Translations under genes and position numbers: made by a program
In this document: positions 56,569-61,867 of the stretch, piece after piece
Numbering within the stretch: position 1 is the first letter of the stretch
How the letters are laid out: each line of letters begins with the position of its first letter
The notes under the pieces: model-generated
Told to the model about the DNA's origin: nothing
What the model saw: only the letters and a program-made list of their open reading frames with translations
Database searches by the model: none
Assembly: GCF_020405225.1 (NCBI RefSeq)
Contig: NZ_CP084472.1
Coordinates: forward strand, 3,782,001-3,846,000
Direction of reading: 5' to 3'
DNA: 64,000 bases
DNA from: Natrinema sp. DC36
GTDB taxonomy: Archaea; Halobacteriota; Halobacteria; Halobacteriales; Natrialbaceae

Positions 56569-57723
56569 ATGTCAAATCCGTTCGAAACCGTCCCCGCAGC
56601 GGCGATTCTCGAGGGGGACGCAACTGACGCCTACTTCGAGCGCACGCGGACCACGCTCGAGCACGCGGGCAAGAACCCCCGCGTCGTCGCCGAAGTAACC
56701 GCCGACCAGTTCCCGACGGGGGAGTTCGACGTGTTTACCGGCGTGAAAGACGTGGCGACGCTGTTCGAGGGCCGCGCCGTCGACGTCGACGCGCTCCCCG
56801 ACGGCCAGCTGTTCGACGGCGGCCCCGTCCTCCGGGTCGAGGGCCCCTACCTCGAGTTCGCCGAACTCGAGACCTCGCTGCTCGGCTTCCTGTCCCAGCC
56901 CAGCGGGTTCGCGACGGCCGCGCTCGAGGCCAGACTGGCGGCCCCGGACTCGATCGTCCTCTCCTTCGGCGCGCGCCACGTCCATCCCTCGATCGCGACG
57001 ACGGTCGAGCGGGCCGCGTTGCTCGCGGGTCTCGACGGCTTCTCCCACGTCGCGGCGGGCGAGATTCTGGGGCGAGAGGCGGGCGGAACGATGCCCCACG
57101 CGCTCATGTTCTGCTTCGGCGAGGGGAACCAGGCCGCGGCGTGGACGGCGTTCGACGAGGCCGTCAGCGAGGATGTCCCCCGGATCGCGCTGGTCGACAC
57201 CTTCTGGGACGAGAAGAGCGAGAGCCTGCTGGCCGCCGAGACGCTCGGCGACGATCTCGACGGCGTTCGCATCGACACCACGAGTTCCCGTCGCGGCGAC
57301 TTCCGGCACATCATCCGCGAAGTCCGCTGGGAACTCGACGCACGCGGTCACGAGGGCGTCGACATCTTCTGTAGCGGCGGCCTCGAGCCCGAAACCATCC
57401 GCACGCTGCGCGACGTCGCCGACGGCTTCGGCGTCGGCAGCCACATCACCGGCGCCGACTCGGTCGACTTCAGCCTCGATATCGTCGAAATCGAGGACGA
57501 GCCGATCTCCAAGCGGGGCAAACTATCGGGGGTCAAGGATGTCTACCGGACGCCCGACGGCGGCCACCACGTCGCACTGGCCGACCGCGACGGCCCCGAC
57601 GAGGGCGAGGCGCTGTTCGAGCCGCTGATCCGGGACGGCGAGGTCGTCCGGGAGTTCGACCTCGAGGCGGCCAGCGAGCGGTGTCTGGCCGACGCCGGTC
57701 GGGTCGACTTCACAACTCAATAA
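56569..57723 (+). CDS. pncB: Nicotinate phosphoribosyltransferase
   Basis: 384-residue type II phosphoribosyltransferase making nicotinate mononucleotide from nicotinate and PRPP. ARHVHPSIATTVERAAL near 136 contains the catalytic-site histidine region; VDTFWDEKSESLLAAE near 206, DTTSSRRGDFRHIIREVRWELD near 227, CSGGLEPETIRTL near 258 and GVGSHITGADSVDFSLDIVEI near 284 are conserved. Together with the nicotinamidase it forms the Preiss-Handler entry to NAD. Confidence 0.94.
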   Translation: MSNPFETVPAAAILEGDATDAYFERTRTTLEHAGKNPRVVAEVTADQFPTGEFDVFTGVKDVATLFEGRAVDVDALPDGQLFDGGPVLRVEGPYLEFAELETSLLGFLSQPSGFATAALEARLAAPDSIVLSFGARHVHPSIATTVERAALLAGLDGFSHVAAGEILGREAGGTMPHALMFCFGEGNQAAAWTAFDEAVSEDVPRIALVDTFWDEKSESLLAAETLGDDLDGVRIDTTSSRRGDFRHIIREVRWELDARGHEGVDIFCSGGLEPETIRTLRDVADGFGVGSHITGADSVDFSLDIVEIEDEPISKRGKLSGVKDVYRTPDGGHHVALADRDGPDEGEALFEPLIRDGEVVREFDLEAASERCLADAGRVDFTTQ

Positions 57724-58190: not shown

Positions 58191-58790
58191 TCAGAGTTCC
58201 TCGATGCTGCCGTCGGCCTTTCGCTCGCGGAAGACCTGGCCTTCGAACAGCGTGACGATAACGTCGTCGTTCTGCCAGGCACCCGGCGCGAGCTTCGCCT
58301 TCCGGCAGGTTCGGTCGAGGTACTCGCGGGCGCTCCAGTCGTTCTCGACCGGCACCGTCGGATACATCCAGCCGCCCTCGCCGCCGTCGATGGCGACGCC
58401 GTGGGTGCCGAGCTCGAGATCGGCCAGCGGGTCGTCCGTTAGCAGCACGTTCCTGACGGTACAGACCGAAACCGTCAGGTTCGGGAGCTCCGAGGGGCTC
58501 ACCTCCGAGCCACAGGAGTCCTCGCTGGCGGCCTCGATCGCCGCGTCCACGATGACGTGGCCGAGCTGATCGTCCGAGTGGTAGCCACCCGCACAGCCCC
58601 GCAGGCTCCCCCGGCCGCGGGTCGACTCGAGGCGGACGAACGCACCGGTCCGCTCGTAGAAGGCCTCGCGCATGCTGCCTGGTTGTTCTCGCTGCCCGTG
58701 TCGTACGTAGGAGTCGACGGATTCACGCGCGAGTTCGACCGCGCGCGCACCGTCCTCGTAGGAAAGGTCGACGCCCTGTCCCTGGGACAT
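58191..58790 (-). CDS. AMMECR1 domain protein (TIGR00296)
   Basis: 199 residues. The AMMECR1 hallmark LRGCAGG near 68-74 is present (here RGSLRGCAGGYHSDDQLG), with AAIEAASEDS near 88, VSVCTVRNVLL near 110, HGVAIDGGEGGWMYPTVPVENDW near 133 and an ending FEGQVFRE. Function unknown; in many archaea it is linked to radical-SAM or Memo proteins, not seen here. ATG 58790 is preferred to 58802 because the family N-terminus is short. Confidence 0.9.
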   Translation of the reverse strand: MSQGQGVDLSYEDGARAVELARESVDSYVRHGQREQPGSMREAFYERTGAFVRLESTRGRGSLRGCAGGYHSDDQLGHVIVDAAIEAASEDSCGSEVSPSELPNLTVSVCTVRNVLLTDDPLADLELGTHGVAIDGGEGGWMYPTVPVENDWSAREYLDRTCRKAKLAPGAWQNDDVIVTLFEGQVFRERKADGSIEEL

Positions 58791-58868
58791 ACAGATGGAC
58801 AAGGGGATAGTCGTCCTAAAACGCTTCCATTCGTGACGGTGCTCTTTTTGTATCTCCGATCGGGGGAC

Positions 58869-58874
58869 TTATTC
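58869..58874 (+). promoter_or_regulatory. TATA-like box of the RNase P RNA gene
   Basis: TTATTC at 58869-58874 (context ACTTATTCG) lies about 20-25 bp before the first base of the predicted P1 helix, a suitable distance for transcription start. Confidence 0.4.
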
Positions 58875-58892: not shown

Positions 58893-59458
58893 CGGTGGGA
58901 GAGAGAGCCTGGCTGCCGCGATGGTCTCGCCGGCAACGGTGGGACCACCTGGCGTGGTTCATCCCTTCGGGATGCATCACGCCACTACCGTTGCCCGTCC
59001 CTTCGGGACGCGCAACGCTCATACCGTGGACCGACTCTTCGAGTCGCTCCACGCTCGTAACGTGGGCCGTCCCTCCGGGACGCCCCACGCCCGCGAGGAA
59101 AGTCCCCCCACCCGTTCGGGCGGGTGACCGGACGCAAGTCCGGAGCGGGAGACCGCTGGCTCTGGAACAGAAACGACACGTCTCGGCCAGACCGATGATG
59201 CGTGCGAACCCGACCGAGAGGAAGGGGAGTTGACCCGCAGAGGGAACGCGTGGCCGCATATCGCTCGCGGTTTGAATCCGCGGATCACGCTCGGCGTGAT
59301 CGACCACCACTGCTGGCCGAGGATCGATGGAACGGCGAATCCTCACCGGTGCAAGTCCGCGCCGTGGTAGCCCGAACACCCCGCGGCCCCGCCGCGGACG
59401 GCGCGGACGCTCAGCCGAATGCCGGGTCGAACAGAAGGGGGCTTACTCCTCTCACCCA
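58893..59458 (+). ncRNA. rnpB: RNase P RNA with expanded P3 region
   Basis: Catalytic RNA of RNase P, about 566 nt. CR-I appears as GAGGAAAGTCC (59095-59105) and the 3' core as GAATGCC...ACAGAAGGGGGCTTAC (59418-59446). P1 pairs 58894-58901 (GGTGGGAG) with 59449-59456 (CTCTCACC); P2 pairs 58908-58913 (CCTGGC) with 59421-59426 (GCCGGG). Between P2 and CR-I, where P3 is usually some 40 nt, lie about 180 nt forming five consecutive hairpins (58922-58947, 58951-58983, 58990-59016, 59025-59053, 59061-59089), three with TTCG loops and one with TCCG. The exact 3' end is uncertain. Confidence 0.9.
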
Positions 59459-59664: not shown

Positions 59665-61146
59665 CTACGCTATCACGCTCCACATCGTCCGTAGCATGTA
59701 CCGGGTTCGCTGTTTGCCGTCGGTTTCTGGGTCGTCACTCTCGTTCTGGACGTCGGTCTCTCCGCCCTCCTCGGTTTCGTCCGATCCGGCCTGCACCTCA
59801 TCCGTGGCGTTCGAATCCGGGCCGTCGGTTTCGTCGACTTCACCGCGTTCGTCGTCTCCCGTATCTCCCTCCGCTTCCTCGTCTCCTTCGTCGCGTTCGC
59901 CCTCGTTTGCGCGAATCACAGTCAGTCCGCCGTCGTCGATGTAGATCGCTCGATCGGCGACCACGCATCGCCCTCCCACGTACGCGCTCTCCGTTCGCGA
60001 AAAGACCCACTGTTCGCCGCCATCGTCGAGATCGAACGCGACGAGCGAGTTTTCGTACTCGCCGCCCTGTAATCCGAAGCTGACGAGGACCGCGTTGCAG
60101 GCGATCACGGGATCGCCGATACAGTGCGAGTACTTCCCCACGGACCACCGCTCGTCGCCGCTCTCGAGGTCGATCGCGACGAGTTCGTACCGCGTGACGA
60201 AGACCAGCGTCTCCCCGCGGACGGCGAGTCGGCGAATCCCGCCGCCCCATCCCTCCTCGCGCTCACCGGTCGCCGAATCGTAGGCGATGACTTCCTCTGA
60301 ACCGGTTCGAACGAATACCCGCTCGTCGGTCGCCACGAGGTCATACAGGTAGTAGTAATACGTGTCGGCCGTCAGCCGCTGCTCGCCCGTCAGCGGATCG
60401 AGACCGACGATCGTTCCAGCTTCGGCGAGCACGAAGACGCGCTCGTCGGTGGCCGCCACTCCCCCCTCGATCGTTCGGTCGACCTCGTTCTGTTCCTCCC
60501 AGGGATCGCCGACGGTCACGGTGGCCGAGTCGCAACGCCAGTCGATCTCGCCGGTCTCACAGTCGATCGCGGACAGCCCGCCGTCGGCGCAGACGTACAC
60601 CCGCTCGAACGCGACCGTCGGCGGCGAGACGGCGGGTTCGTCAGCGTCGGAATCGGTGGCGGCGTCGGAGACCGAGGTTTGCCATCGAACGTCCCCGTTC
60701 GCGGCATCGAGCGCGGTGACGCCCCGATCGCCGCTCACGAAGACGGTCCCGTACGCGACCGTCGGCGATTCGCTGGCACCGACGTCCTCGCTTTGCCACT
60801 CGAGCGACCCGTCGGCGGCATCGAGCGCGTGCACCGCTCCCTCCACCGGCAGATAGACCATACTGTCGTCGACGACCGGCAATCCCCCGACGTCGGCCGT
60901 CCAGTCGACCTCGAGAGCGTCGAAATCGAACCCGTCGCCGAACCCGTGGTCGGAGCCGACCGCGGCCGTATTTCCGTATCCGCCTCGAGCGGCGGACCAG
61001 CCCGCCACAGCCTCCGGCGGCTGCGGCGGAAGCTCATCTCCCGCGTCGGTTGTCGACGCTGCGCTCCCTGACCCCGCTAGCACGCCACTGGCTGCGATAG
61101 TCGTTGCACATCCCGTCAAGAATCGTCGCCTTGTGTTTCTGTGCAC
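59665..61146 (-). CDS. Tat-exported PQQ-binding-like beta-propeller protein
   Basis: 493 residues. The N-terminus RNTRRRFLTGCATTIAASG is a twin-arginine signal, with a cysteine that could act as a lipobox-like site. The body has at least seven repeats of the type VVDDSMVYLPVEGAVHALDAADGSLEWQ (from about 90), the YVTN/PQQ-like propeller pattern of outer BamB-type proteins. The C-terminal 80 residues are an Asp/Glu/Gly-rich tail. It probably binds a ligand or scaffolds partners at the cell surface; no cofactor residues are identified. The upstream 61147-61270 sequence is AT-rich promoter DNA. Confidence 0.88.
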   Translation of the reverse strand: MHRNTRRRFLTGCATTIAASGVLAGSGSAASTTDAGDELPPQPPEAVAGWSAARGGYGNTAAVGSDHGFGDGFDFDALEVDWTADVGGLPVVDDSMVYLPVEGAVHALDAADGSLEWQSEDVGASESPTVAYGTVFVSGDRGVTALDAANGDVRWQTSVSDAATDSDADEPAVSPPTVAFERVYVCADGGLSAIDCETGEIDWRCDSATVTVGDPWEEQNEVDRTIEGGVAATDERVFVLAEAGTIVGLDPLTGEQRLTADTYYYYLYDLVATDERVFVRTGSEEVIAYDSATGEREEGWGGGIRRLAVRGETLVFVTRYELVAIDLESGDERWSVGKYSHCIGDPVIACNAVLVSFGLQGGEYENSLVAFDLDDGGEQWVFSRTESAYVGGRCVVADRAIYIDDGGLTVIRANEGERDEGDEEAEGDTGDDERGEVDETDGPDSNATDEVQAGSDETEEGGETDVQNESDDPETDGKQRTRYMLRTMWSVIA

Positions 61147-61794: not shown

Positions 61795-61867
61795 CGTCCT
61801 GACGGAGATTTGAACTCCGGTCCCTGGCTCCGCAAGCCAAGAGGATAGTCCACTACCCTACCAGGAC
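61795..61867 (-). tRNA. tRNA-Arg (anticodon GCG)
   Basis: 73-nt cloverleaf on the minus strand. Acceptor GTCCTGG pairs with TCAGGAC (last pair G-T), discriminator G. The anticodon loop is TTGCGGA between TTGGC and GCCAG, giving anticodon GCG (reads CGC/CGT arginine codons). The T-arm reads CGGAGTTCAAATCTCCG. CCA is not encoded. A TATA-like TTTAAT on the minus strand lies about 25 bp upstream (near 61890). No intron. Confidence 0.93.

Follow-up and report, generated by a model that had tools for sequence, protein, structure and literature searches.

Prokaryotic RNase P RNAs carry one helix at the P3 position (PMC8509007), and in archaeal RNAs of type A a single short P3 is a usual, though not a defining, trait. 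In the RNase P RNA of Natrinema sp. DC36 approximately 180 nt lie between P2 and CR-I, and a preliminary description of the sequence had read this interval as five consecutive hairpins, four of them sharing a plan. What are these hairpins, do they belong to the RNA, and how did they arise? We address this in a stretch of 64,000 nucleotides, referred to here as the window (contig NZ_CP084472.1, positions 3,782,001 to 3,846,000), and in related genomes.

The Rfam covariance model RF00373 (RNaseP_arch) matches positions 59077-59457 of the window with 124.2 bits against a curated cut-off of 84, and this is the only RNase P RNA match in the whole genome, which bears out the identity first proposed. 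The P4 pairing between CR-I and CR-V (CCCCC with GGGGG) is present in the RF00373 alignment, and the window sequence and core fold are consistent with it. As in type A RNAs generally, P1 and P2 close the molecule, and both pair across it exactly as the preliminary description had proposed; P2 is paired in 93-100% of sequences (n=121) from the family of the window, the Natrialbaceae. The RNA so delimited would be ~560 nt long, with its 3′ end most likely at ~59457. Its parts are:

58894-59457, plus strand: whole RNase P RNA, from the P1 5′ strand to the P1 3′ end; ends predicted from the RF00373 match, P1/P2 pairing and promoter position
58894-58901, plus strand: P1 5′ strand GGTGGGAG, pairing with 59449-59456
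59449-59456, plus strand: P1 3′ strand CTCTCACC, pairing with 58894-58901
58908-58913, plus strand: P2 5′ strand CCTGGC, pairing with 59421-59426, with covariation across the class
59421-59426, plus strand: P2 3′ strand GCCGGG, pairing with 58908-58913
59095-59105, plus strand: CR-I, GAGGAAAGTCC, from the RF00373 alignment
59429-59445, plus strand: CR-V region, GAACAGAAGGGGGCTTA, from the RF00373 alignment

The neighbouring genes are:

56569-57723, plus strand: quinolinate/nicotinate phosphoribosyltransferase-like gene
58191-58802, minus strand: AMMECR1-family gene
59665-61146, minus strand: PQQ-type beta-propeller protein gene
61795-61867, minus strand: tRNA-Arg(GCG)

The RF00373 match starts at 59077, within the last of the hairpins, as it would if the hairpins were a removed 5′ leader or a separate transcript and the mature RNase P RNA began near CR-I. 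We regard this as very unlikely. The 5′ end of the match is forced: at that boundary the 5′ strand of P1/P2 in the model is mostly marked as mispaired, whereas the true strands lie at 58894-58913, where P2 covaries, and most relatives with a single repeat unit are matched by RF00373 from the upstream P1. A candidate promoter element precedes the RNA:

58867-58874, plus strand: TATA-like box, at a fixed distance upstream of GAGAGAG in the family and putatively a promoter element

In 118 of 121 family genomes a TATA-like motif precedes GAGAGAG by 31-35 nt, with no array units behind it or with as many as five, and from this fixed distance to P1 the array is expected to be transcribed as part of the RNA. 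For the RNase P RNA of Haloferax volcanii a separate start site has been mapped (PMC4983044), and a TATA box precedes it (PMC4946936). The constant promoter-to-P1 distance, together with the conserved pairing of P1, P2 and the P3 base, thus argues against a 5′ end at CR-I. Rfam-based annotation puts the 5′ end inside the last hairpin of the array in the window and likewise in the other multi-unit genomes that were checked, so database annotations may lack the true 5′ part of the RNA.

The extra nucleotides before CR-I, an insert of ~170 nt, therefore occupy P3, as had been claimed; the usual single short helix is replaced by a short base that encloses all five hairpins:

58918-58920, plus strand: P3 base 5′ strand, pairing with 59092-59094
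59092-59094, plus strand: P3 base 3′ strand, pairing with 58918-58920
58922-58947, plus strand: hairpin 1, constant, 11 bp with a GNRA (GCAA) loop; fold z -5.3
58953-58981, plus strand: repeat unit 1, with a stem longer by 3 bp (58950-58984); model R1 39.9 bits, and fold
58989-59017, plus strand: repeat unit 2; model R1 43.9 bits, and fold
59025-59053, plus strand: repeat unit 3; model R1 40.1 bits, and fold
59061-59089, plus strand: repeat unit 4; model R1 44.9 bits, and fold

This arrangement of five consecutive hairpins is both the minimum-energy and the centroid fold of 58908-59095 (-110 kcal/mol, z -7.9, with none of 200 shuffles as stable), and each hairpin folded separately takes the same shape. 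Hairpin 1 is followed by four copies of a single 29-nt unit – two 6-bp stem segments separated by a 1x1 mismatch and capped by a 3-nt UUC or UCC loop – set at an exact period of 36 nt (starts at 58953, 58989, 59025 and 59061), although no two are identical. The idea that one hairpin had been copied is thus upheld, and so is the shared plan, with two corrections: in place of the supposed bulge there is a symmetric 1x1 mismatch (C.C in most cases, and U.C in the first unit), and the loop is 3 nt rather than TTCG/TCCG because the G pairs with the preceding C, so that it is not a C(UUCG)G tetraloop. When the remainder of the RNA was scanned for an inserted unit, only scattered pairing matches of unrelated sequence were returned.

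The stems covary. Among 73 distinct orthologous last units 95.3% of cells are paired, an upper and somewhat flattering figure because 19 of the 92 distinct last units, being out of register or otherwise aberrant, are omitted from the alignment. Double changes number 174, against 59 in shuffles, and the covariation score of 0.537 (0.204 when shuffled) was reached by none of 500 shuffles and is lost when the partners are slid. The P3 base is paired in 99-100% of family members and changes from C-G to T-A across the class. These compensatory changes indicate that the hairpins are conserved as RNA and, with the z score of -7.9, rule out chance hairpins.

Related haloarchaea had been suggested as the place to look for variation in hairpin number, and it is found there. 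We compared 123 family genomes at this locus, anchoring P1 and P2 by motifs, and a common 5′ motif is present in Natrinema, Haloterrigena, Natrialba, Natronorubrum and other Natrialbaceae. No units are present in 18 genomes, one in 53, two in 33, three in 15, four in 3 (the window among them) and five in 1, and the interval between the P1 region and CR-I lengthens correspondingly in steps of ~36 nt (~88, 123, 159, 195 and 230 nt). Hairpin 1 varies little, with a GNRA-type loop in 110 of the 112 family members that have an enlarged P3. Copy number changes quickly: RNAs whose cores are 97-99% identical can differ by up to three copies, as in genomes G019 and G020 (99.2% core identity, two and three units), G107 and G109 (98.0%, one and three) and G072 and G073 (96.7%, one and four), and a core-only tree, itself built from a few hundred columns, requires at least 38 changes. 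In one genus (g11; L151, L130, L149, L129 and L134) the P3 region is 177-302 nt long; most of its hairpins differ from the common unit, and one or two normal units come after them.

Genomes outside the family usually have a P3 of 25-60 nt, at high and low Rfam scores alike, in a non-random sample that at first held mostly the best Rfam matches and to which 30 low-scoring sequences were then added deliberately (27 of the 30 parsable). That P3 is normally a single short helix, as the preliminary description had it, is true of most haloarchaea outside the family and of prokaryotes generally (PMC8509007). A few other long P3 regions occur there, all without tandem units. A GNRA hairpin with one unit-like hairpin is seen in the P3 of a Halostella-like genus (G164, G149 and G221) and in L161, L228 (Halostella pelagica), L280 and L281; this form of P3 could be either an older state or the product of transfer.

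Where do the units come from? A search of the 5.1 Mb genome found no unit outside the array (the next match has an E value of 0.05), and in a BLAST search of the array against the same genome the sole significant match was the array itself. The units are nearly palindromic, and identical ones occur in different genera and at different array positions, as might be expected of a mobile palindromic element inserted repeatedly into the RNase P RNA gene. Such an element would, however, be expected to have copies elsewhere, and none was found in the one genome searched whole; moreover, the units keep an exact 36-nt period and a single orientation, with strand-biased UYC loops and a C.C mismatch in 99 units against G.G in 6. 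We consider repeated insertion extremely improbable, and by the same absence of copies elsewhere in the genome the unit does not qualify as a dispersed or mobile palindromic repeat. Since the genome has no unit outside the array, the array would instead grow from itself or by exchange with other RNase P genes. Some RNAs whose cores are just 65-77% identical share two-unit blocks that are identical or nearly so, and this sequence sharing suggests exchange.

Units that are almost palindromic carry a risk, since identical copies would pair with one another. In the window the array folds in silico with a mean native-pair probability of 0.988, a value that falls to 0.002 when all four units are made copies of the same one, whichever is chosen. 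In comparisons that ignore relatedness, units that share an array resemble one another less than shuffled units do (0.412 and 0.473, P about 0.005), and an identical outer arm is found in 4% of within-array pairs compared with 13% when shuffled (P 0.006). Compared with position-matched shuffles, real arrays have a slight folding advantage, a weak difference (0.885 and 0.808, P 0.04) in which relatedness is likewise ignored, and three real arrays, for example that of G012, fold poorly in silico. The divergence of neighbours fits selection against mispairing. The same pattern would result if DNA recombination removed identical copies, and co-transcriptional folding would make the mispairing of identical units less severe.

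Taking together the location of the array, its repeat structure and changes in copy number, the covariation of its stems, its restriction to one locus and the divergence of neighbouring units, we think it probable that this is a type A RNase P RNA whose P3 is a copy-number-variable expansion segment, with an array that is transcribed and kept and units that fold independently. Behind the constant parts, the short P3 base and the GNRA-capped hairpin, tandem 36-nt modules (a 29-nt hairpin and a linker) would be gained and lost, most likely by slippage or by unequal and inter-species recombination. The array would be transcribed with the RNA and presumably retained in the mature molecule. Compensatory change would keep every unit an independent hairpin, and divergence of neighbours would stop these near-palindromes from pairing among themselves. 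Extra units would then be rods extending from P3 that the RNA tolerates, without a part in catalysis and perhaps in contact with Rpp30 on the P2-P3 face; stable hairpins could be added on P3 without harm to catalysis as long as each folds alone.

The strong structural conservation could also reflect a positive function instead of mere tolerance. The array might be a selected module, an RNA platform that, through contact with Rpp30/Pop5 or a partner RNase P on the P2-P3 face, determines the monomer/dimer state, high-salt stability or substrate choice; we hold this to be unlikely. In the dimeric M. jannaschii holoenzyme, Rpp30 reaches across to the other RNA and sits on its short P3 stem (PMC6565675), an Rpp30 gene is present in the genome of the window, and by analogy a five-hairpin P3 at or near the Rpp30 face may block, replace or strengthen that contact. 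The eukaryotic P3 is a protein-binding domain (PMC8509007), the stems of the array covary strongly, and the near-invariance of the GNRA hairpin (110/112) makes a structural contact probable for at least that part. However, copy number shifts freely between close relatives, unlike a finely tuned contact. No PF01918 match over the cut-off, and hence no Alba homologue, was found in the genome of the window, so that eukaryotic-type P3 binding, or imitation of the eukaryotic P3-Alba contact, is unlikely; a eukaryotic-like P3 domain with an Alba-like partner was set aside on this ground. In its fuller form, with a fast-evolving functional P3 array taking over or tuning the Rpp30-P3 contact, and hence the oligomeric state, and with units kept different by selection against mispairing, the proposal is a tentative one that we rather doubt.

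Read as an expansion segment, the array can be set beside known systems. CR-I, CR-V, P1, P2, P4 and most of the core are those of archaeal type A RNase P RNA (RF00373), whereas P3 is a multi-branched five-hairpin array instead of one short helix and the RNA reaches ~560 nt. The eukaryotic RNase P/MRP P3 domain likewise exceeds the single helix of prokaryotes in size and complexity (PMC8509007), but it is an extended helix with internal loops binding Alba-like Rpp20/Rpp25, not a set of tandem hairpins. Ribosomal RNA expansion segments are likewise lineage-specific, length-variable and independently folding additions to a conserved core, whereas this array consists of discrete, countable repeats of one unit. 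The cyanobacterial STRR sequences, too, are tandem repeats inside an RNase P RNA gene (Vioque 1997, as cited in PMC2858038). The 36-nt hairpin module of the window differs from them in being private to its locus. STRR units are much shorter, occur genome-wide and lie in another RNase P RNA helix.

A 2026 survey of ~300 archaeal RNase P RNAs, in its main-text passages on archaeal expansions, describes archaeal RNAs as tending towards reduction and P12.1/P12.2 as having grown in Halobacteria, with no mention there of a P3 array (PMC12974513). That growth is also a lineage-specific helix enlargement in the same class, but is located in the specificity domain rather than in P3. The window has a large insert in the P12 region of the core as well, of 86 nt relative to RF00373 (59203-59289); across the family the core ranges from 264 to 526 nt, and the P12 branch of L029 looks duplicated. 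We found no description of a P3 hairpin array in the open literature, older comparative papers and the supplement of PMC12974513 lying beyond the scope of that search, and priority is accordingly uncertain.

The RNA that bears the P3 array is a known RNA in variant form, widespread within one family, and any function of the array is putative. Archaeal RNase P RNAs have been described as shrinking while proteins took over, and the Natrialbaceae lineage does the opposite; the site of growth is P3, which in M. jannaschii touches a protein of the partner enzyme. More than 100 genomes with zero to five units provide a natural series in which a structured RNA grows by tandem duplication, its copies diverging to fold apart, and a core ribozyme can thus grow through tandem duplication.
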